Below, piece by piece: positions 3,800-20,323 of a stretch of DNA of 64,000 bases (its first letter is position 1; each line of letters begins with the position of its first letter). The stretch is from an uncultured Fibrobacter sp. (GTDB taxonomy: Bacteria > Fibrobacterota > Fibrobacteria > Fibrobacterales > Fibrobacteraceae), in contig CAMUYW010000004.1 of the NCBI GenBank assembly GCA_947165045.1, positions 16,395 to 80,394 of the forward strand, read 5' to 3'. The notes below the pieces were generated by a model. It was not told the origin of the DNA and did not search any database. It worked only from the letters and a program-made list of their open reading frames with translations. The translations under genes were made by a program, and so were the position numbers.

Positions 3800-3844
3800 G
3801 CTTGGAATATAATTAAATTTATAGAGGTTCTTTATGGGGCTTTT

Positions 3845-5829: not shown

Positions 5830-5850
5830 TAGAAAGGACTTTGCGACTTG

Positions 5851-5895
5851 TCATCCTCGCGAAGGCGAGGATCTAGTATTAGTTCTATATAATAC
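5851..5895. repeat. Palindromic intergenic repeat, copy 1
   Basis: The sequence TCATCCTCGCGAAGGCGAGGATC forms a perfect 8-bp hairpin (ATCCTCGC/GCGAGGAT). A second hairpin GTATTA...TAATAC follows directly. The same design (TCATCCTC-type hairpin, then a short AT-rich palindrome) recurs at 14147 and 14881, so it is a dispersed element and not a local terminator. Confidence 0.7.
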
Positions 5896-5902
5896 AACTT
5901 AC

Positions 5903-5932
5903 AAGGTCCGCGCAAGCGGACTTCTTTGTTTT
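5903..5932 (+). terminator. Probable intrinsic terminator after tsaD
   Basis: GTCCGC-GCAA-GCGGAC forms a 6-bp GC-rich stem with a stable tetraloop, followed by TTCTTTGTTTT. It lies 75 nt after the tsaD stop, beyond the palindromic repeat. Confidence 0.6.
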
Positions 5933-6012
5933 ACCTTAAACACGACCTTCTTTTCGAGTTCGCGACCTTATATAAGTTTGTTTTTTTTAACAATTCAATT
6001 TATATTATAGAT

Positions 6013-6465
6013 ATGGTATTCAAAGTAACGCAAAAGATTTGTGCAGCCATTGGTTCCCGAATGGCATTTTTGATTATTTGTCTTGTCGCAGCGTCGTGGG
6101 CGCAGGACTTGAACAAGCCCATAAGCGATGTTGATGTTTTCCGCCCCGAAAAGCGCGAAACAAAAGTTGAACTCGTCGATTCAGCGCAAAATAATTCCGT
6201 AAAGTTGAATGTCGATATTTTTGCAGACGGTTTTATCGGATCGTACTACATTCTTTGGGATAACGTAGATTTATCCGAAGATATCAAAAAGACCATCCAA
6301 AGCCGCAACTTCGCCACAGACGAATTCTTTATGCAAAATATCGACCGCGAACAGTTCGAACAAGAGCGCATGTTGCAACTCTTTGAAGACCGGAAACAAG
6401 AATTCTTTAAGATATTCCCCGACGAAGCTCTCAAGGAACTTCAAGAAATGAAGGCCGACGAGTAA
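6013..6465 (+). CDS. Small secreted protein of unknown function
   Basis: I chose the ATG at 6013 (150 residues) because the residues before it in the 5926 ORF are low-complexity and AT-rich, while the protein from here opens with a signal peptide (Lys near the start, then MAFLIICLVAASWAQD). Cleavage is likely after SWA. The mature part is acidic and mostly helical at the C-terminus, with Phe/Glu-rich repeats such as REQFEQERMLQLFEDRKQEFF. No enzymatic motif is visible and I do not recognise the family. It stands alone between a terminator and a palindromic repeat, and is probably periplasmic or exported. Confidence 0.6.
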   Translation: MVFKVTQKICAAIGSRMAFLIICLVAASWAQDLNKPISDVDVFRPEKRETKVELVDSAQNNSVKLNVDIFADGFIGSYYILWDNVDLSEDIKKTIQSRNFATDEFFMQNIDREQFEQERMLQLFEDRKQEFFKIFPDEALKELQEMKADE

Positions 6466-6487
6466 GTAAACGAGAAAACGCCCCAAG

Positions 6488-6517
6488 CTGTCATTCCGGC
6501 CTCCGAGCCGGAATCTC
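6488..6517. repeat. Short palindromic repeat (TCATTCCGGC type)
   Basis: The sequence TGTCATTCCGGCCTCCGAGCCGGAATCTCC has a 7-bp stem (TTCCGGC/GCCGGAA). A related degenerate copy is seen at 21671-21700. It lies between the small secreted protein and birA. Confidence 0.6.
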
Positions 6518-6544
6518 CTTTTAACAAACACCGACCAACAACAC

Positions 6545-7444
6545 ATGTTTACTCTAGAACGTAATTTTAAAGAGTGGAAGCTTAAAGGATTTGGCGGTGC
6601 AAAGGCCGAACTTTTCGAAACCATCGGAAGCACTCATGCCTATATGAAAGAACTGGCTTGTGCAGGGCTTATCGCGCCGGGAACGCTCTTTGTTGCAGAT
6701 TCACAGCGCACTGGCCGCGGACGTCACGAACGCACTTGGGATTCTCCCGCCGGGAAAAATCTTTATTTTAACATTTTGATTCCGCTTGATGGGATTCCTG
6801 CAAATCGTTACGCACAAATTACGCAGGTGTCGGCACTAACGTTTGCTGAAGTGTTCAACGAAATTCAAGAAGCTGCGAATCTCGAGACTGCGGACCACAA
6901 ATGCGCGGTTCCAGCGAACTGCGCATTCCCGGCAAGCGGAAACATCGCGCCTCCCAAAATTACGGTCAAATGGCCTAACGACATTCTCTATGGCAAAAGT
7001 AAGTTCTGCGGGATTCTTGCGGAAGTTGTTTTTTCGCCCACTCCAGCGCTTAACATGGGTGTCGGCATTAACGTCAACAGCGCTCCCGAAGATTATGCGC
7101 ATTTAAACCGCGCCGTTACAACGCTCAAAGCAATTGTCGGCCGTACAATCAACCGCGAAAAACTTTTGCAAATGCTCGTCGGGAACCTTGAACGCGCCGT
7201 CGGACAATTCAAAGCATTCGGCATCAGCCCTTGGATTGCAGCTTGGAAACGCATGGACAAGTTCATCGGCGCCCGCGGCACCATCGTCGTAAACAACCGT
7301 TGCACCGATCAAAACCGCGACAGCGGCGAAGGGTCCGTCAAAAAAACGGGCACCATTCTCGACATGCAATCCGACGGAAGTTTGCTCTTTAAATGTGACG
7401 ACGGCTCTATCGAAACCGTCATCTCTGCAGATTTAGAAATCTAA
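6545..7444 (+). CDS. birA: Biotin--[acetyl-CoA-carboxylase] ligase BirA (catalytic type)
   Basis: The 299-residue protein matches the BPL/LplA fold: TIGSTHAYMKEL at the start, the biotinyl-AMP loop GRGRHERTW (about residues 57-65), KNLYFNILIP, then KWPNDILYGKSKFCGILAE with the catalytic-site lysines, and GVGINVNSAP. A small SH3-like C-terminal domain follows. There is no N-terminal helix-turn-helix, so it is a group I ligase without repressor function. It attaches biotin to carrier domains such as acetyl-CoA carboxylase. An insert of about 30 residues rich in Ala, Pro and Cys interrupts the sequence just before the KWPND motif, longer than usual for the family. Confidence 0.93.
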   Translation: MFTLERNFKEWKLKGFGGAKAELFETIGSTHAYMKELACAGLIAPGTLFVADSQRTGRGRHERTWDSPAGKNLYFNILIPLDGIPANRYAQITQVSALTFAEVFNEIQEAANLETADHKCAVPANCAFPASGNIAPPKITVKWPNDILYGKSKFCGILAEVVFSPTPALNMGVGINVNSAPEDYAHLNRAVTTLKAIVGRTINREKLLQMLVGNLERAVGQFKAFGISPWIAAWKRMDKFIGARGTIVVNNRCTDQNRDSGEGSVKKTGTILDMQSDGSLLFKCDDGSIETVISADLEI

Positions 7445-7461
7445 CCTGTTTTAAGGTTTGC

Positions 7462-7653
7462 TTATCTTTTAAAATACATGCTGCCGATAAGCGAAACGGC
7501 AAGCATCACAATCATTGCGGTAAGGCCCATGTCCGCCAATTCGCGATGTTCGCCCGCGGCACCCGATTCAATAAGAATCACGCAGACAAGCGCAATAACG
7601 GCAGCTACGCCGCCCATCAGGTGGAACATTTTTACTTTTTCTTCGTTCGTCAT
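7462..7653 (-). CDS. Small two-TM membrane protein of unknown function
   Basis: The 63-residue protein has two hydrophobic segments (about residues 13-29 and 41-59) joined by a charged loop GEHRELADM, and ends in FKR. It starts inside the stop of the UbiA-type gene (4-nt ATGA overlap), so it is translated with it. I do not recognise the family. It could be an accessory subunit or simply a small membrane protein of the same operon. The start follows from the overlap. Confidence 0.55.
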   Translation of the reverse strand: MTNEEKVKMFHLMGGVAAVIALVCVILIESGAAGEHRELADMGLTAMIVMLAVSLIGSMYFKR

Positions 7654-8528
7654 GCATCACCTCCAAGGCAAATCCACACAATGAGTCCCACCATCACGAG
7701 AGCGCTAATTGCAACGTTTGCTAGGAAAAAGTCGCGGTTCATGGCATCCAAATCGTTAGACTTTCTGAACAAGTGAATGTAGACTATCGCAGTTGTCATA
7801 AGGCCAGTGACTGTCCACCAAACCCAGCCCATGTTCCAGAAAAATCCGAACACCACACAAAGCACAAGCATCGCCAAATGGCTTGCGAGCGCAATGCGCA
7901 AAGACTTCTCAATCCCAAATCGCGCGGGCACGGAGTGCAATCCTTGCTTGCGGTCGATTTCAATGTCCTGCGTGGCGTAGATAATGTCGAAACCGCCCAT
8001 CCAGAGCATCAGAATAAACAGGAGAAAAATCGGGAACACGGCAAATTCGCCACGCACTGCAATCCAGGCGCCGAGCGGGCTCATTCCGATGGCAAAGCCG
8101 AGGAACCAGTGGCAAAGCCACGAGAAGCGCTTCCAGTAAGAATATGAAAGGAGCAGAAGCCAAACTGGAAGTGCGAGCGCGCCCGCGAGGGGCTGGAGCA
8201 TCCAGGCAAACGCCACAAACAAAACGCCGTTCAAAGCGAGGAACGCAATCACCGATTTACGACTCAAGCGCCCTGCCGGCAAATGACGTTTTGCCGTACG
8301 CGGATTTTCGGCATCGAACTTGGCGTCGGCAATGCGGTTAAAGCTCATGGCGCTATTGCGGGCGGTCACCATGCAAAGAACGATCAAGACGATAATGCGT
8401 GCGGTTTCGTAAGCGCTCATGTCGCGGAAACCGTTTGCTGCAACCCACATGGAACCAAGCGCAAAAGGCATCGCAAACAGCGAATGGCTCAACCGAACAA
8501 GATGTGTAAATTCTAAAAGCTTATTCAT
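7650..8528 (-). CDS. UbiA-family 4-hydroxybenzoate-type polyprenyltransferase
   Basis: The 292-residue protein has seven to nine TM helices and the two Asp-rich motifs of the UbiA family: NRIADAKFDAENPRTAKRHLPAG (about residues 64-86) and YATQDIEIDRKQGLHSVP (about residues 184-201). These bind Mg-diphosphate of the prenyl donor. The motif wording is closest to UbiA/MqnP-type enzymes, which attach an isoprenoid tail to an aromatic acid in quinone synthesis. In an anaerobe of this kind the product would be a menaquinone precursor, but no other mqn or men biosynthesis gene is nearby, so the pathway is inferred. The ATG is preceded by GGAAAGAAA. Confidence 0.82.
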   Translation of the reverse strand: MNKLLEFTHLVRLSHSLFAMPFALGSMWVAANGFRDMSAYETARIIVLIVLCMVTARNSAMSFNRIADAKFDAENPRTAKRHLPAGRLSRKSVIAFLALNGVLFVAFAWMLQPLAGALALPVWLLLLSYSYWKRFSWLCHWFLGFAIGMSPLGAWIAVRGEFAVFPIFLLFILMLWMGGFDIIYATQDIEIDRKQGLHSVPARFGIEKSLRIALASHLAMLVLCVVFGFFWNMGWVWWTVTGLMTTAIVYIHLFRKSNDLDAMNRDFFLANVAISALVMVGLIVWICLGGDA

Positions 8529-8544
8529 TTTCTTTCCTGCAATA

Positions 8545-8580
8545 TAAAAACTCCGAAAGTCGTGTTCAACTTTCGGGGTT
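8545..8580 (-). terminator. Intrinsic terminator of the 8609-9034 gene
   Basis: On the minus strand a 12-bp stem with one G-T pair (AACCCCGAAAGT / ACTTTCGGAGTT, 8-nt loop) is followed directly by TTTTTATATT. It lies just after the stop codon of the small hypothetical gene and before ubiA. Confidence 0.7.
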
Positions 8581-8608
8581 CACCTCGCTGTTCGATGGTG
8601 ACAAACAA

Positions 8609-9034
8609 CTATTTTCTCAGGATTTCGACGAGCTGTTTTGCGTTCTTTTCGATGAGAATGAACGCTTCGAACATACGTGCTTCGCGCCACTTGGTCAGAT
8701 ACTTCGTCTGCCAGTCCACGGCAATCACGTCCGGGTCCTTCGGACCATTCTCGTTCTGGTACCAGACTTCCTTCGTGATTTCGCGAATCATGGCGCCCAT
8801 TTCGGCTGCCGGCTGGAGCGAACCCTTGCAGAGGAGCAATGCACGGAGGTTGTCGAGCAAAATTTCGTCTGTTGGCTGTTCAGCATCTTCGCGAGCGCAT
8901 TCCCAGATTTCGTCGCGATGGCGTTCAGTCCAGTCGATCAAATACTTTTTGGTCTTTTCAAGTTCGCCCTTGGCGAGCTTTTCATCGACCGCTTCGCGCG
9001 GATAATATATGCTGTTAGGATAGAATTCAATCAT
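8609..9034 (-). CDS. Conserved-looking small acidic protein of unknown function
   Basis: I shortened the 168-residue track ORF to the ATG at 9034 (141 residues). The longer version runs into the tRNA-Leu gene, whereas [14 protein letters not shown] is preceded by an excellent ribosome site (AAGGAGGTGGATC). The protein is soluble, helical and rich in Glu, Lys and Trp (for example [20 protein letters not shown] and [19 protein letters not shown]). No catalytic motif or membrane segment is visible. It lies just downstream of tRNA-Leu(TAA) on the same strand and ends at its own terminator. Function unknown. Confidence 0.65.
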
Positions 9035-9074
9035 GATCCACCTCCTTGTGCGAAGTTGAAGCACAAAAAGACAA

Positions 9075-9157
<83 letters not shown>

Positions 9158-9374
9158 AGGTTGTGCGTGCAGAATATAGCAAATTTGAGTAGGTTTATTT
9201 ACATGATTACACGATTTAACATAGTTTTTATCACATTTCTTCAAGAAAAAACATTTTCTGTTTACAAATATTTACTTTCAAAGTTCCTTTTATATATATT
9301 ATAACTTGGACCAAGGCGATAAAAGGGCTCCTTTTATTGTTAATTTTGGTGCGGATTGTCTTGGAGATTTCGAT

Positions 9375-9923
9375 ATGTTGAATCACGTTTCAAAAAAGAG
9401 CGGCTTTACCCTAGTAGAAGTCCTTGTCGTTGTGTCGATTATGGGAATTCTGTCTACGGTGGGTGTTGCAAGCTTGAGAGGTGCTGTGATCAATAGTCGA
9501 ATGAGGGATTGCGCTCTGAATACGGCGGCATTCCTGGAACGTATTGCGAATGATGCCAACAGAATGTCCAAGACCCTTTGCGTTAAAAAAGATAATGACC
9601 ATAGATTGACCGCTTATGTGACGGATAATTGCTCGAATCTTTCGGGCGCCGAAGAATTTGAAACTTTCGCGATCGAAGCTCCAGCAAAGTTTGGGTGCAG
9701 TGGACCTACCGCAATTAGCGACTTGGAAGATTATAGCGGTGACGATTGGTCTACAGGTGGTGCGTTATTTGAGCCTCGTATTGGTCTTGCGGCCACTCCC
9801 TCTGAAGGCTATCTCTGCATGCAGTACGGTAGCAGTGACGTTTATGGAATGGCGTTCAAGAAAAAAAACAACAATATGATAATCCCCATGTGGAAATCGG
9901 GTAGTTACTGGAACGAGTTATAG
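9375..9923 (+). CDS. Type IV prepilin-like / pseudopilin protein
   Basis: I chose the ATG at 9375 (182 residues), with GGAG 9 nt upstream. The peptide then has a short basic leader ending KKSG followed by FTLVEVLVVVSIMGILSTVGVASL, the class III prepilin signature with Glu at +5 and the hydrophobic N-terminal helix. PilD-type peptidase would cleave after the Gly. The C-terminal globular part has four or more cysteines, which could form disulfides. It is followed 7 nt later by a second prepilin-like gene. The two are probably minor pilins or pseudopilins of a type IV pilus or type II secretion apparatus in the envelope. Confidence 0.82.
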   Translation: MLNHVSKKSGFTLVEVLVVVSIMGILSTVGVASLRGAVINSRMRDCALNTAAFLERIANDANRMSKTLCVKKDNDHRLTAYVTDNCSNLSGAEEFETFAIEAPAKFGCSGPTAISDLEDYSGDDWSTGGALFEPRIGLAATPSEGYLCMQYGSSDVYGMAFKKKNNNMIIPMWKSGSYWNEL

Positions 9924-9930
9924 GTGTATT

Positions 9931-10392
9931 ATGGAAAAACTTTTGAAAAATAAGAAAGGCTTTGGTATCGTAGAAATCTTGGTCGCTGCGGCGGTCCTCG
10001 GTTTTATGTACATGGCTATTTTGAATCTTCAGGGTGGAAACCATGATGCCTTATTGCGTATTCGTGGACGTGACGGCGCTGTTCAAGTGGCGCAACAAGT
10101 TCTAGATTCTCTCAAGTCCGTGGGGATAGCATCCATCCCGTCTAAAGAAGCTGACGATACAACGTTTACAGTTCAAAATATCGATCGCAAGTGGGCGCGC
10201 GGTCTTGGGGACTCTGCAACGGTGACGTATTCTGCGCAAGTGACAGTTTCTGCAACGTCAAATTACACATCGCAGACATCATCGCAATTCGAGACGGTTT
10301 CGCACGTTTACGCAAAGCAAGTGAACGTCAAGGTCTCTTGGAATTTTAAAGGCTCAACGCAGTCCATCGAAGTTTCAAGCGTAATTAGGTGA
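9931..10392 (+). CDS. Type IV prepilin-like protein (PilV/GspI-like minor pilin)
   Basis: The 153-residue protein begins MEKLLKNKKG followed by FGIVEILVAAAVLGFMYMAIL, a prepilin cleavage site with +5 Glu and a hydrophobic helix. The globular region is Thr/Ser-rich and contains YAQ and VSWNFKG-type beta strands. The sequence EILVAAAVLGFMYMAI resembles minor pilins of the PilV/GspI type. It follows the other prepilin gene after 7 nt and is probably co-transcribed. Which pilus or secretion machine it serves cannot be read from this window, as no PilB, PilC or PilQ gene is present. Confidence 0.78.
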   Translation: MEKLLKNKKGFGIVEILVAAAVLGFMYMAILNLQGGNHDALLRIRGRDGAVQVAQQVLDSLKSVGIASIPSKEADDTTFTVQNIDRKWARGLGDSATVTYSAQVTVSATSNYTSQTSSQFETVSHVYAKQVNVKVSWNFKGSTQSIEVSSVIR

Positions 10393-10398
10393 TAGGGG

Positions 10399-11775
10399 TT
10401 AGGGCTTCGTCAACAAATGCATTATCACCGGGCGGTTTTTACCGTGCTCGGTTTTGTGTATCGTGAGTTTTCCCGTGCTGTCGTAGCTGAACTGTTCGCC
10501 CACGCGTTCGCCGTTCACATAAGTCAGGCTATCTCGCAAAATTCCGCTTGGATACCAGTTGCGCCAGATACCATGACGCTTGGCGCCGTCTCGATCTCTT
10601 TGCCAAAAGCCTTCGCTTGCCATCTTGCCACCCATGCTGTCGGGGTAAAAACTGCGGCTTACGCGAATAGCTGGATCGCCGTAGCTTGACGGCGGATCAT
10701 CGTATGCCCAAAATTCTTCGTACAAAAGAACGTGCCCTGCCTTGATGTAGCGGAGCGTTGCGGGGTACTTTCCGATATTTTTCTTATAGGCATCCTTGAA
10801 ACTTAACGTGCAACTGTCGAGCGTTCCGCTTGGGAGCCCTGAACGGACAAATGAAGTTTCGGCGCAGAATAGTGTAGATGAATTGGCGCAAGTTCCGTAG
10901 GTGATGCCCGTACTTTCAACGGGGCCGTCCGTTTCTTCGGTAATGAAATTGCTTTCACGAACAACGTTGTTGTTCTCGTCGAACCATTGTATTTTTTCAC
11001 GGCCCTTGAAATAATTCGACTTGATTTTTTTGATGAACGTACCGTCGGCTCTGTAAGTCGTATGCGGGTAGAAAAGGATGTCGCTTTCCGCAAAACCTTC
11101 TTCCTTGATTTGGGCCTTGTTGCAACTTTCGCCAGTGGAATCGGGTTCTCCGTATGATTCGTAATAGCGCTTGTAAACGCCCGATTTCTGTTCGCCTTCG
11201 CATTCGTAGTATTCCAGAATTCTGCAGTCACGGCCGTAGCGCTTGATATATCCGGGTGTAGGGTCGTCCATATATTCCTGATGGCAATTATTTTCTTCGG
11301 CGAGCACGCCGTTGTCATGCCATTTTTTCCAAACGCCCGTTGCAATTCCATCTTCGTTGTAATGTTCCTCGAACGCTTTTTTCTGGTTATGATGCCAGCC
11401 TTCCCAATCGCCAACAGGGTGGTCGTCCTTGTAATACTGGACTGCCTCGACTTTCTTGTTCTGGTAGTAGATGGTCCACTTGCCGTCTTTCAGCCCTTTG
11501 TTGTAGTTGCCAATCATCGCCACATCGCCAAAACCTGTCCAGCGCTTGAATTCGCCGTGCGGGAGGCCGTCTTTGTAAGGAATTTCAAGTTCCTTGATGC
11601 CATCGTTGTACCATTCGTTGCGCTTGAGGACGGTTCCGTCCGGGTAAACCCAGATGGAGGTCTTTTTGACTCCGTTAGCGTGCCTTGCGAGGATTTGTTC
11701 TTCGGCTCGCTCGACTGTACAGCCGGCGAAATAGCATAAAAGTGCAGAAAAAGCGATGAATTGATGGAGTTTCAT
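10399..11775 (-). CDS. Lipoprotein with YwqK/MORN-like repeats
   Basis: I chose the ATG at 11775 (458 residues) because it gives a lipoprotein signal MKLHQFIAFSALLCYFAGC, while the track ORF adds 44 residues without a start signal. The mature part contains repeated units such as YKDGLPHGEFKRW, NKGLKDGKWTIYYQNKK, DDHPVGDWEGWHHNQKK and DGIATGVWKKWHDNGV. This is the G-x-W-x-x-[YW]-x-x-[ND]-G pattern of MORN/YwqK-type beta repeats. The C-terminal third has another run (GIWRNWYPSGILRDSLTYVNGERVG) and several cysteines. YwqK proteins are often labelled antitoxins, but there is no toxin beside it. A surface scaffold role is more likely. Divergent from the next gene. Confidence 0.78.
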   Translation of the reverse strand: MKLHQFIAFSALLCYFAGCTVERAEEQILARHANGVKKTSIWVYPDGTVLKRNEWYNDGIKELEIPYKDGLPHGEFKRWTGFGDVAMIGNYNKGLKDGKWTIYYQNKKVEAVQYYKDDHPVGDWEGWHHNQKKAFEEHYNEDGIATGVWKKWHDNGVLAEENNCHQEYMDDPTPGYIKRYGRDCRILEYYECEGEQKSGVYKRYYESYGEPDSTGESCNKAQIKEEGFAESDILFYPHTTYRADGTFIKKIKSNYFKGREKIQWFDENNNVVRESNFITEETDGPVESTGITYGTCANSSTLFCAETSFVRSGLPSGTLDSCTLSFKDAYKKNIGKYPATLRYIKAGHVLLYEEFWAYDDPPSSYGDPAIRVSRSFYPDSMGGKMASEGFWQRDRDGAKRHGIWRNWYPSGILRDSLTYVNGERVGEQFSYDSTGKLTIHKTEHGKNRPVIMHLLTKP

Positions 11776-11809
11776 TGTTCGTAAAGTAGAAAAAAAGTAA
11801 TTTCTAGAT

Positions 11810-12598
11810 GTGAACGAGCAAACAAAAAAAATAATTGCAGAAACTTTGCGCATGAAAATCCAGACTCCCTGGATTTGGCTTGTCGTTGTGCTTACGATTT
11901 GCCTCACGGCGTTGTTCTATGTTTCGCAGAAACCGCAGGTTGCCGTTTATTCTCAGTATGTCAAGTCACTTTGCGATTACCAGTTTGCCGATGCAAGCCT
12001 GATGCGCTCGATGGAACATGTCCGAAGCGGCTACGGGGTGGATTCGGCGGTGGTCATTTCGCAGATGATGACGCTTCGCGAAGTGGCGCTCTCGTTCGAG
12101 GGGGGCGTGCAAAAACTGGAGCAGACTGGCTTTTCGGCTCCGTCGAAAGCTTCGGTGGATAATTTCAAGTCAAGCGTTTTGGCGAAAGTTTCTTGCTTGC
12201 AGCGTTACCTTTCGGAACGTTCCGCCTGGCTCGATGATCTTGAACGCGTCTACCGCTTGATGGAACTGAATCCGGCGGGGGTGGACCTTGCGCTTATGCG
12301 TAAGCTCGATTCTGCAAAGGCGGGTTATGCGGTGTTGCCCGATAGCCAGTTGGATTTGCCCGAGTCATTTAACAAGCGTGTGGAATTGCTGTTCCAGAAA
12401 AACTTGGAATTGTACAATGCCTGGAACCAGTTTGATAATGACAAGACGCTTAGTGCGAGTGACGAACTGCTCCACTTTTTCCAGATGGAAAACGTGAAAG
12501 AAATTTCGTTGTCGGCAAAGATTCCGCTTGCGTTTTACTTTTTGTCGCTGGTCCTTTTGCTCGCTACGTTCTTCTTCATATTCAAGTCTAAACAGTAA
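11810..12598 (+). CDS. Bitopic membrane protein of unknown function
   Basis: The 262-residue ORF has a GTG start at 11810; an ATG at 11852 (MKIQTPWIW) is possible, and neither has a strong ribosome site. A TM segment (WIWLVVVLTICLTALFYVS) lies near the N-terminus and a second at the C-terminus (FYFLSLVLLLATFFFIF), so a helical domain of about 190 residues faces one side of the membrane. I do not recognise a family. It is followed 9 nt later by another protein with the same end-anchored topology, and the two probably work together. Confidence 0.6.
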   Translation: MNEQTKKIIAETLRMKIQTPWIWLVVVLTICLTALFYVSQKPQVAVYSQYVKSLCDYQFADASLMRSMEHVRSGYGVDSAVVISQMMTLREVALSFEGGVQKLEQTGFSAPSKASVDNFKSSVLAKVSCLQRYLSERSAWLDDLERVYRLMELNPAGVDLALMRKLDSAKAGYAVLPDSQLDLPESFNKRVELLFQKNLELYNAWNQFDNDKTLSASDELLHFFQMENVKEISLSAKIPLAFYFLSLVLLLATFFFIFKSKQ

Positions 12599-12607
12599 GG
12601 ATTTGTG

Positions 12608-13228
12608 ATGTCTATTTTTCGCGTTCGTAAAGTTGCTTTTATCAATTTTGGGTTGTTGTTCATTTTTCTCGCAAGCTGGATCTCGTGGTACATTTACCCG
12701 CTGGCAAGAAGCATCACAAAAGAGTTTACCGCATACGAGATGACGGATGGTTCTTTCGAATATGGATTCTCCGAGGAATTGGGGTTCCTTTCGGAACATG
12801 TCTTTTTTGGCAAGGTGAGCTATGCCGCTATTCCGAAATTGTTTGGCGGAACAAACATCCCGTTTTTTGACAAAGTCTATTTCCAGTTGAACGGCGATTC
12901 AAAGAGCACTTTCGTTCTTTACGTGAACGATGAAATTTTGGACGAAATGGCCGAATGGTACGATTTTGGCGCGATGAATGCTAGCGATGTTCCTATGGAA
13001 GTCCGTGCTGTAAAAGTGGGTGACAAGTATATCGTCAAGTCCATGAAATCGACAGACGGAGAGCTAGGCTGGGAATTTTTGATGGACGGCTATCATTTTT
13101 ATTGGTGCTTTGTCGGCATAGGCCTAGTTAGCATAATGTTTGTGTTCGGCCTGGTGCTGGTCGTTGTTGGAATCATGCATAAGCCGCGCCGCGTTGTGGA
13201 ACAGGAAGCGCCCAGCGACGTGGAATGA
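12608..13228 (+). CDS. Membrane protein of unknown function, two end-located TM segments
   Basis: I chose the ATG at 12608, which follows AAGGATTTGTG; the track uses the GTG just before it. The 206-residue protein has TM segments near residues 13-32 and 160-185, with a beta-rich middle of about 120 residues (for example DKVYFQLNGDSKSTFVLYVNDEILDEM). The architecture mirrors the preceding gene. No motif is recognised. Both may form an envelope complex with the secreted hydrolase that follows 9 nt downstream, but this is only inferred from spacing. Confidence 0.6.
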   Translation: MSIFRVRKVAFINFGLLFIFLASWISWYIYPLARSITKEFTAYEMTDGSFEYGFSEELGFLSEHVFFGKVSYAAIPKLFGGTNIPFFDKVYFQLNGDSKSTFVLYVNDEILDEMAEWYDFGAMNASDVPMEVRAVKVGDKYIVKSMKSTDGELGWEFLMDGYHFYWCFVGIGLVSIMFVFGLVLVVVGIMHKPRRVVEQEAPSDVE

Positions 13229-13237
13229 TGTAGAATC

Positions 13238-13987
13238 ATGTGTTTGCGTGCTGTTATTGCTTTGTTGTTGGCATGCGTGTATGCGTTTGCTGCGCCGGAT
13301 TCGCTCTCGGTTCCGGTTGGAACGTCGGGCGTGCAAAGCCTGACGGGAATCTGGTGGCCGAAATCCGCGACTGCGAAAAAGTTGTCGAAGGTGAAAAAAT
13401 CGGAAAAAGTGAAGCGCGAGAGTGCGCCGGTAGTCCTTTGGTTCCATGGTGGCATGGGGAGCGGCAACTGCGCGAAAGGGCTTGTTGCTGGGGCCGATTT
13501 TGCTGAACTTTATCCAGAAAAAATTGTGGTGAGTGTGTCGGCTTGTCGTGAAAATCATTGGATCACGAAAGGGATGATGGATGCCGTTGATGCGGCGCTC
13601 GATTCTGTGGCGGCAAGGCGCAAGACTCCAGTGGGACGTGTTTCGCTGGTGGGCGTTTCGGATGGTGCGCTGGGCGTGTTAGTCTATTCGCTGGAAGGCC
13701 GTCGGGCCGTGGAGGACCGCTTGCTCATGAGCTCGTTCGGCAAGTTACTGGGAGATGCGCGCGCGATTGCCGGGGCAAATGAAACTCGGATGCGCATGGG
13801 ACGTTGGCGTTTTTTGCAGGGCGGTAAGGATAGACTTTATCCGTCGGGTGAGACTGTTCCGTGGATAACGGAATTCTGCAAGGCAGTTCAGGTGGACTGC
13901 GAACTCCGGTTCGATCCGGAGGGCGAGCATGACTGGTCGTATTGGAAAGACAAGCGCATGGACTGGATTCGCGAAGCGACCCCTTGA
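13238..13987 (+). CDS. Secreted alpha/beta hydrolase, esterase-like
   Basis: The 249-residue protein has a signal peptide (VIALLLACVYAFAAPD) and an alpha/beta-hydrolase core: oxyanion motif WFHGGMGSG (about residues 67-75), nucleophile elbow GVSDGALG (G-x-S-x-G, Ser about residue 147), and a C-terminal GEHDW that supplies the catalytic His. Lengths and motifs resemble small feruloyl/acetyl esterase-like or dienelactone-hydrolase-like enzymes. In a fibre-degrading bacterium a plant-polymer deacylase is plausible, but substrate cannot be read. The stop codon overlaps the -35 box of the following tRNA promoter. Confidence 0.72.
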   Translation: MCLRAVIALLLACVYAFAAPDSLSVPVGTSGVQSLTGIWWPKSATAKKLSKVKKSEKVKRESAPVVLWFHGGMGSGNCAKGLVAGADFAELYPEKIVVSVSACRENHWITKGMMDAVDAALDSVAARRKTPVGRVSLVGVSDGALGVLVYSLEGRRAVEDRLLMSSFGKLLGDARAIAGANETRMRMGRWRFLQGGKDRLYPSGETVPWITEFCKAVQVDCELRFDPEGEHDWSYWKDKRMDWIREATP

Positions 13988-14012
13988 CAAAAGGTTGATT
14001 TTTTTCAAAATT
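13984..14012 (+). promoter_or_regulatory. Probable sigma70-type promoter of tRNA-Leu(CAG)
   Basis: TTGACA at 13984-13989 is followed after 17 nt by AAAATT, 11 nt before the tRNA 5' end. The -35 box overlaps the esterase stop codon. Confidence 0.5.
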
Positions 14013-14023
14013 TGGTGCACCAC

Positions 14024-14107
14024 GCGGATGTGGTGGAATTGGTAGACACGCTAGATTCAGGTTCTAGTGCTCGCGAGGGCATGAAGGTTCAAGTCCTTTC
14101 ATCCGCA
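14024..14107 (+). tRNA. tRNA-Leu(CAG)
   Basis: Acceptor stem GCGGATG/CATCCGC with discriminator A, D-arm GGAATTGGTAGACACG, anticodon stem CTAGA/TCTAG with loop TTCAGGT (anticodon CAG), a long variable arm TGCTCGCGAGGGCA and T-arm AGGTTCAAGTCCT. It is followed directly by a terminator. Confidence 0.94.
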
Positions 14108-14111
14108 CTGA

Positions 14112-14139
14112 AAAACCCGGTAGTTCGCTGCCGGGTTTT
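14112..14139 (+). terminator. Intrinsic terminator after tRNA-Leu(CAG)
   Basis: AAAACCCGGTAG-TTCG-CTGCCGGGTTTT is a 12-bp stem with one G-T pair and a UUCG loop, closing with a T run. Confidence 0.85.
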
Positions 14140-14146
14140 CTGTATC

Positions 14147-14200
14147 GTCATCCTCCCTTCGGGAGGATCCATACGTGTTTCGCCAATAGTATTGTATGGG
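14147..14200. repeat. Palindromic intergenic repeat, copy 2
   Basis: TCATCCTCCCTTCGGGAGGATC (8-bp stem) is followed by CCATAC...GTATGG, the same two-hairpin plan as at 5851. The stretch to the GNAT gene start contains nothing else I can support. Confidence 0.7.
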
Positions 14201-14268
14201 TTGGCTCCGCCCTGCTCTTTGCCTCAACGAATGACTGTCTACTTTAAAATTTCTAGGATTATAGCATT

Positions 14269-14868
14269 GTGGGTGAAACGTCTGAAAATGAATTTAATTT
14301 CGAAATAGAACCTTGCGAATTCTCTTTGCAAGCGGTGGACGGCGACCATGTGGTATTGCGGCCGCTTGTCGAAGCGGACGCGCAGTCGCTGTTCGAACTC
14401 ATTGACGAATCTCGCGAGTTCTTGCAGGTGCATTTGCCATGGCCGGATGAATGCACTTCGGTCGAAGACGTTTCTGCGAGAATTGATTCATGGAATATGC
14501 AGGCTGAAATGGCGAATGGCGCTTGCTGGGGTATTTTCGAAAAAGAAAAAATCGCGGGCTGCATTATGCTTGGCTGGGTGCAGTGGAAGCACCGCTCGGC
14601 GACAGTCAGCTACTGGCTGGGAAAGCATTTTTGCGGTCGCGGCTTGGCGACCGAAGCGTTGCTGTTGGCTGCAAGCGAAGCTTTTGCGATGGGCTTGAAC
14701 CGCCTTGAACTTACGGCATCAGTCCGCAATCCAAAAAGTATTGCGGTCGCTCGTCGTGCCGGATTTGTCGAGGAAGGCTTGTGCCGTGAATACGAACGTC
14801 TCCATGGAAAGTTCGAAGACCATGTGCGCTTCTCGCTTCTTGCGCGCGATTTACTCGGTGCCGAGTGA
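14269..14868 (+). CDS. GNAT-family acetyltransferase, RimJ/RimL type
   Basis: The 199-residue protein (GTG start) shows the RimJ/RimL-type layout: VVLRPLVEADAQSLFELI at the N-terminus, YWLGKHFCGRGLATEALLLAASEAF with the acetyl-CoA-binding R/Q-x-x-G-x-A loop (G-RGLAT, about residues 123-130), and NRLELTASVRNPKSIAVARRAGFVEEGLCREYERLHGKFEDHVRFSLLARD at the C-terminus. It probably N-acetylates a protein alpha-amine or small molecule in the cytoplasm. It stands alone between two copies of the palindromic repeat. Confidence 0.85.
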   Translation: MGETSENEFNFEIEPCEFSLQAVDGDHVVLRPLVEADAQSLFELIDESREFLQVHLPWPDECTSVEDVSARIDSWNMQAEMANGACWGIFEKEKIAGCIMLGWVQWKHRSATVSYWLGKHFCGRGLATEALLLAASEAFAMGLNRLELTASVRNPKSIAVARRAGFVEEGLCREYERLHGKFEDHVRFSLLARDLLGAE

Positions 14869-14880
14869 TTGTTCCGCTTG

Positions 14881-14949
14881 CGTCATCCTCCGCAAGGAGG
14901 AACCATACATTGCTTAATTACAGTGTATGGATCCTCTTCGAGGATGACG
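14881..14949. repeat. Palindromic intergenic repeat, copy 3 (complete double palindrome)
   Basis: The ends CGTCATCCTC and GAGGATGACG are inverted repeats. Inside are CCATACA/TGTATGG and two smaller hairpins (TCCTCCGCAAGGAGGA and ATCCTCTTCGAGGAT). This appears to be the complete form of the element seen in part at 5851 and 14147. The whole unit of about 69 nt can fold into one cruciform-like structure. Confidence 0.75.
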
Positions 14950-15066
14950 TGTAACCATCGTTCTGCCAACATCTTACAGCAACCTGTAAGCAAATTGGTT
15001 ACTTAGGTAAACGATAAAGCGTTTTAAATTTTTAATATTGCCCCGAAACTCTTCTATTTTTAGAAT

Positions 15067-15912
15067 ATGGAAACAGGAGAAAATCATATTGTTGAACCTG
15101 ATGTCTTGAAGTACACCAACTACCGCGTGTACTTGCGGGACTACTATGAGTTCAAGAAAAAGACGGTGCCGGCGTTCAGCCTCCGTTTCTTTGCCGAGAA
15201 GGCGGGACTTTCGAGTCACGCCCATTTGAAGCTTACTATCGATGGCAAGCGAAACATTACGAAGAATACCGTCGTGAAGCTCATTCATGGTCTCGGACTA
15301 GAGAACCAGCGTGCCGCCTATTTTGAAAGTCTCGTGTTCTTTAATCAGGCTCAGACCGATGCCGACAAGCAAGTTTATTACGCTCAACTTTTAAAAGCAA
15401 GCCCGCGCTCCAAACTGCACAAGATGGACAAGGCCCAGTTCCGCATCTTCCGCGAATGGCACCATTCCGCGATTCTCGAGATGGTGGCCCTCAAGGATTT
15501 TCGACCGATTCCCGACTGGATTTCGAAACGATTGCACGGAGCAGTCACACCCGCCCAGGTCACGGAATCGCTCAAGCTGCTTGTGGAACTAGGCCTCTTG
15601 GTCAAAACGGCGAATGGATACCGCCAGCGCGATCCGCTGATTACCACCGATGACGAAGTCCAGGATTTGATGGTCAAGATGTACCATTTGCAGATGCTGA
15701 AGCTCTCGGCGAACATGCTTTCGGACCTTCCGGCCGCAGAAAGGGACGTTTCGGCACTTACATTCTGCATTAGACGCGAAGATTTCCACAATTTGAAAAA
15801 ACATTTGCAACTTATGCGCAAAGAACTACTAGATTTTTCTGCAAAAGCGGGAGAAGCTGAGGATGTTGTGCAAGTCAATATCCAGCTGTACCCTCTGACA
15901 CGAGGAGTTTGA
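15067..15912 (+). CDS. TIGR02147-family protein (putative regulator)
   Basis: The 281-residue protein opens with YTNYRVYLRDYYEFKKKTVPAFSLRFFAEKAGLSSHAHLKLTIDGKRNITKNTVVKLIHGLGL, which is the hallmark of TIGR02147: a DYRxYLxDYYxxKK start and an HTH-like FAxKAGxSSxxxLKLxIxGKRN segment. The rest is helical with a winged-helix-like middle (PAQVTESLKLLVELGLLVKTANGYRQ). I know this family as a large paralogous set in Fibrobacter succinogenes with unknown function. The HTH-like character suggests DNA binding. Its stop overlaps the start of a lipoprotein gene (TGATG), a pairing likely to be functional. Confidence 0.85.
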   Translation: METGENHIVEPDVLKYTNYRVYLRDYYEFKKKTVPAFSLRFFAEKAGLSSHAHLKLTIDGKRNITKNTVVKLIHGLGLENQRAAYFESLVFFNQAQTDADKQVYYAQLLKASPRSKLHKMDKAQFRIFREWHHSAILEMVALKDFRPIPDWISKRLHGAVTPAQVTESLKLLVELGLLVKTANGYRQRDPLITTDDEVQDLMVKMYHLQMLKLSANMLSDLPAAERDVSALTFCIRREDFHNLKKHLQLMRKELLDFSAKAGEAEDVVQVNIQLYPLTRGV

Positions 15913-17174
15913 TGCGTTCTTTGACTTCAATAATCGGTTGTGTGCTTATGGCACTTTGGTTAGCTGGGTGTTCTGAATCCGACACTACGGCCGGTATTGA
16001 AATTGGGAATCCGGAAATTCGCAATCTGGCCTTTACGGCAGATTTCTCGATTGATTATTCCGAAACGAAGCAGGCAACGCTCTCGAAATCCGCTTCGGAT
16101 GAAGAAAATTTTGTTGTCGATACGTTCCGTCTTATGTTGACGGAAGTCCGCTCTTATTGCAGTTTCTATGCGGGCATGTCCGTAGATCTGGAATCGGGGC
16201 TTATCCTTTGGCCGTACGAAGAAGATCCGTCGGCGGTACTCCCCATATCGTTTACGGACGGTGAACTTGTTGAAGATGCCTTCGAAGACATTAACCTGCG
16301 CACGGAAGGGCGCCTGAAGGAAATCGGAGTTGCGTTCCAGGTGGGAATGAACGAAAAGCCCAATTCCATTTATGGACGTATCCGCAAAGATGGTAAGGAA
16401 ATACCGTTCGTTTACGAAATGAACAACATTCAATTGTTCGAACTGAGGTACCATTATTCGCAAATTGATATCCAAGATTCTACAGTAAATTTGTCTGTAA
16501 TTTTCCGCGTGCACCGCTTCGTAGATGGGCTCGATTTGTCCAAGGCCGAAGTTGGCGAAGACGGCGTAATCCGCTTTAGCAAGACAGCCAATGCAGAACT
16601 TTGGAAGTCGCTGAATGAACGCTTCTTGTCGAGTTTCCAGGCTCTGCGCTATAAATACACGGATGCCGAAGGCAAGGACGGCAGCGCTTATGTCGATGAT
16701 GTTTGGGAAAAACTCAGTGGTGCGTTGAGTACAAATTTGGTAAGCAACGGCGATTTCAAGCACGATGACAAAGATTGGATTTTGCACACGCAGCTGAACG
16801 GCGCTGCAGAAAAATCAATAGTCAGAGAAGAACGTTCGAACCTGATGCGCGTCCACGTGACAAAGGGTGGCGGGTATTCGTACAGCGTTCAGCTTTTGCA
16901 CGAAAACATTTCTGTTGTGGCCGGCGCTCGATACAAGATTATTTTCACGATGTGGTCGGATGTCGAAGGCGCTATTACGGCACGTTTGGGAACATACATT
17001 CGCTATGAAACCAACGGCTTCCAGGAACACCCTGTTATCGAAACTGTTGGCAAGTCTTTTGAATACGAATTTACTCCCGAAGTGACGGACCCGTTTGCCC
17101 GCCTTGATTTGAACTTGGGCAAAGCCGAAAGAACGTTCTGGATCAAGGACGTGCAGATTGTGAGGATTAAGTAG
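15912..17174 (+). CDS. Lipoprotein with C-terminal carbohydrate-binding-like domain
   Basis: The ATG at 15912 overlaps the stop of the TIGR02147 gene. The 420-residue protein has a lipobox (ALWLAGC), then an N-terminal region of about 250 residues containing GIEIGNPEI and FRLMLTEVRSYCSFYAG, and a C-terminal jelly-roll-like domain from LVSNGDFKHDDKDWILHTQ to the end (TFWIKDVQIVRIK). NGDF...W at the start and FW[IL]xDV at the end are typical of CBM4/9-type (CenC-like) modules. It is probably an outer-membrane lipoprotein binding a glycan. Its last 43 nt are nearly repeated 2 kb downstream. Confidence 0.75.
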   Translation: MRSLTSIIGCVLMALWLAGCSESDTTAGIEIGNPEIRNLAFTADFSIDYSETKQATLSKSASDEENFVVDTFRLMLTEVRSYCSFYAGMSVDLESGLILWPYEEDPSAVLPISFTDGELVEDAFEDINLRTEGRLKEIGVAFQVGMNEKPNSIYGRIRKDGKEIPFVYEMNNIQLFELRYHYSQIDIQDSTVNLSVIFRVHRFVDGLDLSKAEVGEDGVIRFSKTANAELWKSLNERFLSSFQALRYKYTDAEGKDGSAYVDDVWEKLSGALSTNLVSNGDFKHDDKDWILHTQLNGAAEKSIVREERSNLMRVHVTKGGGYSYSVQLLHENISVVAGARYKIIFTMWSDVEGAITARLGTYIRYETNGFQEHPVIETVGKSFEYEFTPEVTDPFARLDLNLGKAERTFWIKDVQIVRIK

Positions 17175-17175
17175 G
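17133..17175 (+). repeat. Direct repeat DR-L: 3' end of the lipoprotein gene
   Basis: A 43-nt stretch encoding the lipoprotein C-terminus (TFWIKDVQIVRIK, stop) matches 19144-19186 with a single silent difference (ATT versus ATC). The two copies bracket the ATPase/PD-(D/E)XK-like pair. Weaker codon-level similarity extends about 33 nt further upstream of both copies. Confidence 0.85.
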
Positions 17176-17183
17176 GCTCTTGC

Positions 17184-17212
17184 CGCCCTCGATTTTATAG
17201 AGGGTGTTTCTT
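17184..17212 (+). terminator. Possible terminator between convergent genes
   Basis: CCCTC-GATTTTATA-GAGGG with flanking GC pairs is followed by TGTTTCTTG. The stem is short, but it lies directly after the lipoprotein stop and faces a convergent gene. Confidence 0.45.
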
Positions 17213-17216
17213 GTTA

Positions 17217-17738
17217 TCAGAAGAAATCCTTAGAAAAAGACGGAAGCGTTTTTGCAATAAAATGCAGATTTAAAGCTTTGACTAAAGCATCATCCTGAAA
17301 TTCTTCGTCGAGACGTGATAGCACGCTTATGCCTTCTTGTAGACGGTCTTCATTGAACAAGACAAACCCCTTGTTATGAAAAGATGCGATAAGGGCGTGG
17401 AGGTTGCTATATGTGCCTTTGAACTTTTTTAGAATGCTTTTTAATTGTTGACGAACAGAACCGTCCACATTGAACTTCATTTCTCCAAGCAGCGCTTTAC
17501 CATTGTCCAAGACGAATGCGAAATCCATCGAACAAGGCTGTTGCCTGGGGAAACATGCTATTGCCAAAGCATCCCCATTTACGACAGGTGCGTCTTGTGG
17601 TGTAAAGGCGAAATCAGCATCTCCAAGATTTTTATCAGGATTGTTTTCTTTTTCAGCCAACGAATAGAAATCTGTACGGGCTTGCGGGGCGCATCGCATT
17701 ACAAGATTTGTTGAATTGGTTTTATCGTATTTAGGCAT
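17217..17738 (-). CDS. Putative PD-(D/E)XK-like nuclease partner of an ATPase
   Basis: I chose MPKYDKTN at 17738 (173 residues), which keeps an 8-nt overlap with the upstream ATPase gene. The central part reads CSMDFAFVLDNGKALLGEMKF. The Asp (about residue 72), a hydrophobic strand and E-x-K (about 86-88) fit the D...(D/E)xK core of PD-(D/E)XK nucleases, with normal spacing. An upstream Glu/Asp-rich region and a C-terminal helical part complete a small single domain. The protein family itself is not recognised. The overlap with a SMC/OLD-like ATPase suggests an ATPase-effector pair as in many anti-phage systems. The nuclease call rests on a motif and not on overall similarity. Confidence 0.5.
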   Translation of the reverse strand: MPKYDKTNSTNLVMRCAPQARTDFYSLAEKENNPDKNLGDADFAFTPQDAPVVNGDALAIACFPRQQPCSMDFAFVLDNGKALLGEMKFNVDGSVRQQLKSILKKFKGTYSNLHALIASFHNKGFVLFNEDRLQEGISVLSRLDEEFQDDALVKALNLHFIAKTLPSFSKDFF

Positions 17739-19065
17739 CCCCGTCCTCATCATCTATTCCGGAATAGATGTCTATCTTTTCAAGCGATTTGTTGAACATT
17801 TTGAATATTGGGGAAATGTTCAAATCATATTTTTTGAATCGATATAGATAAGAATCAGGCGTACTGCTTTCTGCAAGATAAAAACAGACTTTGTCTTGAA
17901 CGTCCTCTCCAAACTCGTATTCGGATACGTGCTTGATAGCCCGGATGAAGTCTGGACTATGGCTTGCTATGAGAAATTTGACTCCAATGATTTTATGAAG
18001 TCTAATTACAAGTCTCGCGTATTCAACCACCCATTGAGGATGGAGGTGGGCTTCGGGTTCGTCGAGAATCAACAAACTTTTTCCGTCCAGTACACCTGCT
18101 GTATAGAGCATTTGCAATATGGAAAAAGATTTTAATCCGGTTGCGCACTCTAGCAGGTTAAATGATTTGCCATCTGGACGGTGGTAGACGAACTGTTCGT
18201 AATTGTCCTTCTTTTCCCAGCTGGAATTTCCACTGAGCAAGCCCAAGTTTGCCCCGCCAGTAAAGTCGAAGCCGGAAATAGATTTTTTTCTTTTTAGGGA
18301 ATTATTCAAAAAATTCCAATGAGCTCGGTATGATTGATTTTCGCCGAGAGCCATTGGAGAATCTATGTAGAATATGTTTTTGACTGTATTCGGAATAGCG
18401 ACGTTGTCGTCTTCGGTATTTAAAATAGGGACGGAATCTTCGTAGACGTTAAACAGTTCTGGATTAATCCCGTTACCTTCGCCAAAGGAATTTTTCCAGA
18501 ATTCCTGAAATAAACCGGCTTTGCGGTCTGCTTTTGCTCGAATTGCATCGCGTTCTATTTGATTCAAATAGTTTTCTATTTCTATTGCAATTTGAGGTAA
18601 TTCCAAAGAATTTGCATTATTCCCAATGATAGACTCGAATATTTTGCGGAATCTTGTGATTTTATTTTGTTCTTTTGCAGGAGGGCTTATATAACCGATG
18701 GATTCAAGGACTTGCTTGAGAATTTTTATAGCTGTGTGGAGTCTTTCTAGGTCGGAGCTTTCTGTGCCAATGAAATAAGGGTATAGCTCTTTAGTCAATT
18801 TTGTCAATGTAGATCTGTCAATTAACCCAGTCAGGTTGTTGCTTGCGATAAACAGAGCTTGTGCCAAAGGATAAATATACTTGGTCCAGGTATTATTGTT
18901 GACAATATCTTCGTAACGGATGGCTGAAGAAAGGAGATTATATGTTTGATTGGCAATGGTGCTTTTGCCGGAACCGTTTATGCCGGATAATACCGAAATC
19001 CCGTCTAGTTTTATTTCAGCTGATTCTACTGCGCGAAAATGATTGATTTTTACCAAAAGACTCAT
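17731..19065 (-). CDS. AAA ATPase of the OLD/RecF-like class (putative defence ATPase)
   Basis: The 444-residue protein starts MSLLVKINHFRAVESAEIKLDGISVLSGINGSGKSTIANQ, with Walker A GINGSGKST (about residues 29-37). A long helical insert follows, then ATGLKSFSILQMLYTAG, Walker B LLILDEPEAHLHPQW (about residues 338-352) and the H-loop IASHSPDFIRA. This layout is that of AAA_15/AAA_21-type ATPases. There is no C-terminal TOPRIM domain, so any nuclease activity must come from a partner. The next gene on the same strand overlaps it by 8 nt and has a D...ExK signature. A strong AAGGT ribosome site precedes the ATG. Both are bounded by the 43-nt direct repeats. Confidence 0.78.
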   Translation of the reverse strand: MSLLVKINHFRAVESAEIKLDGISVLSGINGSGKSTIANQTYNLLSSAIRYEDIVNNNTWTKYIYPLAQALFIASNNLTGLIDRSTLTKLTKELYPYFIGTESSDLERLHTAIKILKQVLESIGYISPPAKEQNKITRFRKIFESIIGNNANSLELPQIAIEIENYLNQIERDAIRAKADRKAGLFQEFWKNSFGEGNGINPELFNVYEDSVPILNTEDDNVAIPNTVKNIFYIDSPMALGENQSYRAHWNFLNNSLKRKKSISGFDFTGGANLGLLSGNSSWEKKDNYEQFVYHRPDGKSFNLLECATGLKSFSILQMLYTAGVLDGKSLLILDEPEAHLHPQWVVEYARLVIRLHKIIGVKFLIASHSPDFIRAIKHVSEYEFGEDVQDKVCFYLAESSTPDSYLYRFKKYDLNISPIFKMFNKSLEKIDIYSGIDDEDGDA

Positions 19066-19143: not shown

Positions 19144-19186
19144 ACGTTCTGGATCAAGGACGTGCAGATCGTGAGGATTAAGTAGG
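19144..19186 (+). repeat. Direct repeat DR-R: second copy of the lipoprotein 3' end
   Basis: The sequence matches 17133-17175 at 42 of 43 positions and still reads TFWIKDVQIVRIK-stop. The codons before it (N-L-C-K-N-N-A) resemble N-L-G-K-A-E-R of the intact gene, so it may be the remnant of a paralogue rather than a clean attachment site. The rest of 19066-19333 shows no supported gene. Confidence 0.8.
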
Positions 19187-19333: not shown

Positions 19334-20323
19334 TTATTTTTCCGCGTGGTCGTTCGTTATATCTTCCATGAAAACAACATTCTCGCCCCATCCTTTTCCA
19401 AACATCGAAGGCGAATGTGTTGCTATAATGAGCTGGCAATTTGGATTCATTTGACAAATGACATCTATTAATATTTGCTGCCAACTGATATGCAGAGATA
19501 TTTCAGGTTCGTCCATCAGGACAATCCATTTTTTCTTTTCTTGCAAAAATACCTGAAGTAAAATATAAAGTAACTGTTTTTCTCCAGATGATAGTTGGTC
19601 TATATCTATTTCACCACCATATTCTGTTTTGAAAAAAAGCCGTGCAGGATTAGAAGATACATCTATTTTTTTCTTTGTTTCTTGGAAAAATTTATTGACG
19701 CATTCGAAGAAATCATCAATATTCTTAAGAATAGATTCTGCGTTTTTTTTGTCGTCCAATGCTCTTAATCTGTAGTTGAAAAAAGAAGGGGCTTTGGAAT
19801 TTTGGTTTATGACAAATTCCAATTGTTTTGACAGAAAACTTTCGTTTTTCTTTTGATTTTCTCCGTTAATGAGATCGCACAAACGATTCAGGAATGTTGT
19901 TTTTCCAGATCCGTTGTTGCCAACTAAAATATTGACTGTCTTTAAATTATTCCAAGAAATTTTTTTACCGTTCCACAAATCGCACGATACGATGGATGAA
20001 ATGAATTCCTTGGGTCTCAAATCGGAATCATCTATTTTCCAATATTCTCTAAAGTAAGCTTCGGAATAATCTTTGTACTTGATTTTGCCCTCTTTTGCAT
20101 CATCAAATTTTTTCCGGACTTTTTCAATAGCTTTTTGGGGCCACTTCAATTCTATGAGGTATTTTGACATATCTTCGTCAAAAACCTCTCCAAAAGAATA
20201 CAAGGCCTTTACAGCTTCTTTAACTCGATTTTCGTCAAGAGGATGTGCGAAACCAGTCTCTGGGAAAGACGTCTGCGTAAGCCAGTCAAAAGCCTTCATT
20301 GTTACTTTAGAAATGTTATTCAT
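19334..20323 (-). CDS. AAA ATPase with ABC-type signature, role unknown
   Basis: The 329-residue protein has an unusual N-terminal helical region of about 130 residues. The ATPase core follows: VNILVGNNGSGKTTFLNRL (Walker A, about residues 130-139), the ABC signature IDQLSSGEKQLLYILLQVF, Walker B KWIVLMDEPEISLHISWQQ and the H-loop IIATHSPSMFG. It is a stand-alone member of the AAA_21 type seen in defence and retron-associated modules. There is no overlapping partner: the next gene on the same strand is the other ATPase, 268 nt downstream past the direct repeat. Composition is AT-rich compared with the core genes. Confidence 0.72.
   Translation of the reverse strand: MNNISKVTMKAFDWLTQTSFPETGFAHPLDENRVKEAVKALYSFGEVFDEDMSKYLIELKWPQKAIEKVRKKFDDAKEGKIKYKDYSEAYFREYWKIDDSDLRPKEFISSIVSCDLWNGKKISWNNLKTVNILVGNNGSGKTTFLNRLCDLINGENQKKNESFLSKQLEFVINQNSKAPSFFNYRLRALDDKKNAESILKNIDDFFECVNKFFQETKKKIDVSSNPARLFFKTEYGGEIDIDQLSSGEKQLLYILLQVFLQEKKKWIVLMDEPEISLHISWQQILIDVICQMNPNCQLIIATHSPSMFGKGWGENVVFMEDITNDHAEK

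Follow-up and report, generated by a model that had tools for sequence, protein, structure and literature searches.

We have analysed a pair of overlapping genes in a 64,000-nt stretch of DNA from an uncultured Fibrobacter sp. (the window), and conclude that it is a divergent, previously unrecognised member of a type of module already described, in which an ATPase is combined with a small protein of restriction-endonuclease (REase) fold, and not a new kind. The model for this type is WonAB, described in 2025 from the Vibrio cholerae WASA-1 prophage (PMC12137116). The window pair is probably a WonAB-like defence module, with the ATPase as sensor and a nuclease as effector. The small protein is termed divergent and unannotated because searches of Pfam, PADLOC, PHROG and the PDB all fail to recognise it. 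The features of the locus are collected in Table 1.

Table 1. Positions of the gene pair, its flanking elements and other candidate defence genes in the window
Feature	Positions	Strand	Remarks
Direct repeat, copy 1	17133..17175	+	Last 42 nt of the lipoprotein/CBM gene 15909-17174, its native 3' end, and one further base
Hairpin CCCTC...GAGGG	17186..17205	.	Between converging gene ends; possible terminator, read from sequence
Small gene	17217..17738	-	173 aa; predicted PD-(D/E)XK nuclease effector (WonB-like)
ATPase gene	17731..19065	-	444 aa, intact; OLD/RecF-type ABC ATPase without TOPRIM; predicted sensor/activator (WonA-like)
Direct repeat, copy 2	19144..19186	+	Second, partial copy of that gene end; similar as far as 19119
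Lone AriA-like ATPase	19334-20323	-	329 aa; PDLC04164, 3e-78; directly behind repeat copy 2
PDC-S47 candidate defence gene (PADLOC)	40734-41501	-	Single gene; 5e-52
Menshen NsnC	42887-43660	-	3e-52
Menshen NsnB	43657-44661	-	2e-85
Menshen NsnA	44658-45758	-	2e-110

The ATPase contains a Walker A motif (G28INGSGKST, with the lysine at K34), a degenerate, signature-like motif (ATGLKSF at 308), a Walker B motif (LLILDEPE, with D335 and E336) and an H-loop (SHS, H369). The only Pfam families above cut-off were of the AAA/SMC type (AAA_15, 9e-12, matched from residue 5 to 374 of the 444; AAA_21, 4e-10; SMC_N, 3.5e-05), and no TOPRIM domain was found by Pfam. The protein is what an earlier reading of the sequence only had taken it for, an OLD/RecF-like ATPase without TOPRIM. 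Profile matches to the PDB placed PtuA, AriA and the OLD ATPases nearest among solved structures, and the PADLOC profile for AriA matched at 1e-11.

The small gene overlaps the ATPase gene by 8 nt. Its ATG start, with GAGGACGGGG just before it, has a Shine-Dalgarno-like GAGG of its own, and the list of open reading frames also includes an alternative 178-aa protein from an in-frame upstream ATG. The stretch SMDFAFVLDNGKALLGEMKF holds the putative active-site residues in the arrangement S70-x-D72...E86-x-K88; coordinates, overlap, the length of 173 residues and D72/E86/K88 were all correct in the sequence-only reading. Searches with the small protein of Pfam, NCBIfam, PADLOC, PHROG and the PDB gave nothing meaningful (0 PADLOC families), and we attribute to chance a lectin match in NCBIfam, which scored 16.7 bits (E 0.005) where the cut-off is 150. 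Likewise, no match to it was obtained by tblastn in plasmids and phages or in the contig scan of genomes; the scan with the ATPase alignment found a second Fibrobacter copy only. Several partner nucleases from other hosts match PHROG 25533; a search with this family gave one weak match in the relatives and nothing in the window genome.

Structure prediction by AlphaFold2 was uninformative for the window protein (pLDDT 33, from a shallow alignment of four rows) and gave a weak model for a homologue, L060 (pLDDT 50.5, pTM 0.51). The elements of the latter model follow the order helix-strand-strand-helix-strand, with D64, E78 and K80 on or beside the central strands. Comparison of this model with a viral structure library gave no usable match, and the five top entries from a Foldseek comparison with the PDB, none of them significant (best E 0.043), were Avs3, EcoO109I, LmuA, HamA and Card1. 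All five are PD-(D/E)XK nucleases, and for a model of this quality such a list is suggestive only. A nuclease fold, and nuclease activity, are predicted for the small protein.

The second Fibrobacter has kept both genes, at 77% (ATPase) and 73% (nuclease) identity, at a site different from that in the window, beside nadC and a GDP-fucose gene cluster. Nucleotide differences between the two copies fall mainly at third codon positions, and the dN/dS values of ~0.09 for the ATPase and ~0.12 for the small protein, which are rough because dS exceeds 1, show purifying selection on both genes.

A search of relatives with the ATPase yielded a graded set of matches. In the eight further loci with the best matches, a gene for a protein of 171-231 aa comes after that of the ATPase, at a spacing of -11 to +24 nt; the genes of related pairs usually overlap by 1-11 nt. 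It had been suggested in the sequence-only reading that homologues of the small protein be looked for beside ATPases, and among the 19 full-length related ATPases examined, from Fibrobacterota, plasmids and phage contigs, we observed 18 that have directly downstream a partner of 171-231 aa with the motif [ST]xD...[ED]xK. One full-length ATPase, from a phage contig (L112, 2992-4317), lacks a downstream D...ExK partner of 80 aa or more, and a DnaB helicase gene follows it. The order from ATPase to small gene is the same in 18/18 pairs, and the motif in the form [ST]xD-x(8-16)-[ED]xK, starting at residues 58-80, is present in 18/18 partners as compared with 20/252 (8%) control segments of 190 aa. 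Partner type tracks the branch of the ATPase, since more distant ATPases, similar to that of the window around Walker B only, carry either HNH partners of the Septu type or PD-T4-4_B partners.

Among the partners, the window nuclease is an outlier by its pairwise scores: it exceeded 300/300 shuffles against the proteins of L005 (z 6.8) and L007 (z 5.5) and nearly all shuffles against those of L009 and L106, and did not do so against the remaining partners. When the two-row window alignment was compared, profile against profile, with the other nuclease subgroups, E-values were 0.04-0.9, nothing convincing, from alignments that are tiny and have no power. Its homology to the partners is suggested by motif, register, operon position and the pairwise scores.

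The distribution of the pairs bears on their function. Matches to the nuclease profile are patchy, being present in 13/168 Fibrobacterota genomes, and related pairs were also found on two plasmids, one of 5.9 kb from Klebsiella and one from Acinetobacter, on a gut mobile element whose record calls it a phage, and on phage or prophage contigs. Two related pairs (L100, L108) lie within Type I R-M operons, between HsdS and HsdR, another (L107) adjoins an RdrA-like gene, and four (L098, L099, L101, L106) lie among polysaccharide genes, by our own reading of the open reading frames and as a raw count without background. Patchy spread, differing sites and the R-M, plasmid, phage and Menshen contexts are typical of a mobile defence gene. 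A role in defence is supported by the Type I R-M, plasmid and phage or prophage locations of pairs, and by a Menshen system present in the same insertion as the window pair; these contexts, the pairing in 18/19 cases and the WonAB precedent uphold the original proposal of a two-gene module of ATPase and PD-(D/E)XK nuclease with the small protein as effector. Could the pair be, instead, a housekeeping one, a RecF/Rad50-like ATPase and a nuclease engaged in DNA repair or recombination and unrelated to defence? The RecF/SMC N-terminal signature on the ATPase is in keeping with such a role. We consider it most improbable, however, for genes that most relatives lack, that have no universal fixed locus in the genus, and that vary in genomic site, occur on plasmids and phages, and have R-M and Menshen genes as neighbours.

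Two further observations concern individual loci. The element deposited as 'Bacteriophage sp.' under MT835532.1 (L049) resembles, by our own reading, a mobilisable element, in that ParB-like and mobilisation-like genes adjoin the pair. Also, in two Fibrobacter genomes, pairs of different subtypes (L097, 7107-9864; L107, 7567-10164) adjoin the same lemA-like gene, which suggests a shared insertion hotspot.

In most of the relatives examined, glgB lies closely 3' of the lipoprotein gene, within ~90 nt; in two (L083, L091), the next genes are those of a GDP-fucose/GDP-mannose polysaccharide cluster and the pair is absent. In the window, glgB starts only at ~63922, and therefore ~46.7 kb (17175-63921) are inserted relative to about ten Fibrobacter relatives. 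Several defence genes share this insertion with a polysaccharide cluster, among them the PDC-S47 candidate of Table 1: the ATPase-nuclease pair comes first, followed by the lone AriA-like ATPase, for which no AriB-like neighbour was seen, and then by the polysaccharide cluster, within which there is a complete Menshen system (42887-45758, minus strand). A tyrosine-recombinase-like gene, read from its translation, is located near the right end of the insertion (60773-61606, plus strand) and could bear on mobility.

The pair had been described as the sole content between two 43-nt direct repeats, and the repeats were verified. They are identical at 42/43 positions and enclose no other gene, and the window holds no further copy within 13 mismatches (0 expected by chance). 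Similarity between the two runs upstream to ~67 nt (84%). Sequence like that of copy 1 closes the orthologous lipoprotein gene in 14 Fibrobacter relatives, and copy 2 resembles the 3' gene ends of relatives over up to 67 nt (76-88%). Since copy 1 is a gene end and the similarity extends over ~67 nt, the arrangement is a partial gene duplication and not an anonymous repeat. A terminator scan gave, overlapping the hairpin listed in Table 1, a terminator-like stem at 17173-17189; such sites are no commoner than in shuffled sequences. With regard to base composition, the pair has a GC content of 40.0%, compared with 47.4% for the upstream gene, 49.6% for window positions 1-15000 and 37% for the polysaccharide cluster at its other flank, so that the description of the pair as AT-rich holds relative to the upstream gene, although the difference is mild and the value is near that of the polysaccharide cluster.

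A flanking repeat of some kind was found for 4/10 Fibrobacterota pairs, as compared with ~1% of random 2-kb stretches. With regard to mobility, the repeats might mark a cassette for which an integrase or transposase uses the gene end as attachment site. The tight bracketing of the window pair would agree with this, as would the situation in another Fibrobacter (L103), where a 233-nt, 94%-identical partial copy of an adjacent gene brackets a related pair (7551-7783 and 10381-10613). Yet the repeats differ in length (43 and 233 nt) and in kind, those at two other loci being a low-complexity GC stretch (L101) and an unrelated repeat (L099), and the remaining 6/10 pairs have none; there is no constant attachment core across the repeats and no recombinase between them, and copy 2 has diverged outside the 43 nt. 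We therefore regard a mobile cassette of this sort as unlikely. The repeats look more like the by-product of import by homologous recombination, and such import, leaving behind a partial copy of a neighbouring gene, would best explain both the window and L103. Target duplication by a transposon was rejected on account of the unequal repeat lengths and because the copies consist of gene fragments that have diverged.

For the probable defence module, we propose a mechanism by analogy with WonAB, Septu and PARIS AriB. The ATPase would dimerise via its ABC motifs, sense an infection cue and, with ATP, hold and then license the small PD-(D/E)XK nuclease; the licensed nuclease would cut a nucleic acid essential to the cell, with tRNA or rRNA as the likeliest target, upon which translation would stop and phage production be aborted. 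Complex formation between the two proteins, the trigger, the RNA substrate and phage protection are all suppositions drawn from these analogous systems, and as to RNA as the substrate, we hold the chances to be about even. The nuclease of the same module might, in an ATP-dependent and restriction-like manner, cut DNA, degrading that of the phage or the host chromosome. In most cases a PD-(D/E)XK motif marks a DNase, the best, non-significant fold matches of the homologue named above are mostly to DNA-cutting enzymes, and the two pairs located between HsdS and HsdR genes are also in keeping with this alternative. In the WonAB system, however, where both genes are required, activation of WonB stops translation, the chromosome is not degraded and infection is aborted, and for this reason the authors suspect rRNA or tRNA as the target (PMC12137116). 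Moreover, of the related systems, Septu cleaves tRNA-Tyr (PMC13096335) and PARIS AriB cleaves tRNA (PMC12409363). DNA cleavage is, in our estimation, a possible but somewhat doubtful reading.

Two overlapping genes with a small, toxic-looking effector, found on plasmids as small as that of Klebsiella, also call to mind a toxin-antitoxin or addiction module without phage sensing, the ATPase serving merely to neutralise the nuclease. But over-expressed WonB is toxic only when WonA is present and active, so that simple sequestration is ruled out in WonAB (PMC12137116). Also, antitoxins are usually small and precede their toxins, whereas here the partner is an ATPase of 444 aa whose catalytic motifs are intact. 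A toxin-antitoxin function is, by these criteria, quite improbable.

Taken as a WonAB-like module, the window pair extends immunity by ATPase sensor and REase-fold effector to Fibrobacterota, and the related loci supply nucleases that are diverse, can be aligned, and escape the profiles now used to find defence systems. Polysaccharide loci may be defence hotspots in gut fibre degraders. The window pair could show whether the translation arrest seen with WonAB holds for the whole class. It is conceivable, though we would give it little weight, that the pair and its 77%/73% copy form a WonAB-like subtype of their own, with a nuclease family that no searched profile library contains and with a trigger or nucleic-acid target other than that of WonAB, and that such Fibrobacter pairs are exchanged together with surface-polysaccharide clusters. 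If this exchange were true, phage receptor and intracellular immunity would be swapped in one event.

Several known systems share features with the window pair. PD-T4-4 also consists of an ATPase and a downstream PD-(D/E)XK-type nuclease, and tblastn from a relative of the window ATPase reached PD-T4-4 plasmid loci of E. coli and Klebsiella. The window ATPase, however, matches PD-T4-4_A at 3e-14, compared with 6e-185 for a member, and the window nuclease has no match to the PD-T4-4_B models, which recognise true members at up to 6e-108 (positive control); we rejected membership on the latter ground. Septu (PtuAB) and the PtuAB effector of retron Ec78/Eco7 likewise have a related ABC ATPase with a small nuclease downstream. 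PtuB is an HNH nuclease, whereas the window partner is of the D...ExK type and matches no HNH or PtuB model of Pfam or PADLOC, so that the pair was not assigned to Septu, and the comparison with Septu made in the sequence-only reading is less apt than that with WonAB. PARIS (AriA/AriB) and OLD/Gabija share an OLD-clade ATPase with the window pair, but their effector is a TOPRIM nuclease, of which there is none here. Membership in PARIS was rejected as the partner has no AriB (DUF4435/TOPRIM)-like match in Pfam or PADLOC, and membership in Gabija/OLD as the window ATPase has no C-terminal TOPRIM.

Closest in design is WonAB, together with the 'OLD-ABC ATPase + Novel REase' class of Krishnan et al., which, as cited in PMC12137116 and PMC12409358, is a predicted operon of an OLD-ABC ATPase and a restriction-endonuclease-fold protein, present, according to the former, in 0.96% of bacterial genomes. 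WonAB and the window pair have in common the order of ATPase followed by small PD-(D/E)XK-type nuclease, and an OLD-type ABC ATPase without TOPRIM. The Walker A lysine is at position 34 in both ATPases, and in both, the Walker B glutamate and the H-loop histidine are 33 residues apart (E300/H333 in WonA, E336/H369 in the window). The nuclease lysine is early in both proteins (K71 in WonB, K88 in the window), WonB being of 16.1 kDa and the window nuclease of 173 aa, and prophage relatives exist for both pairs. They differ in host and site, a Fibrobacter polysaccharide locus as opposed to a Vibrio cholerae prophage. In its gene organisation, type of ATPase and active-site motif, the window pair fits WonAB and the Novel REase class, among which we would place it on the published description and not on sequence identity.
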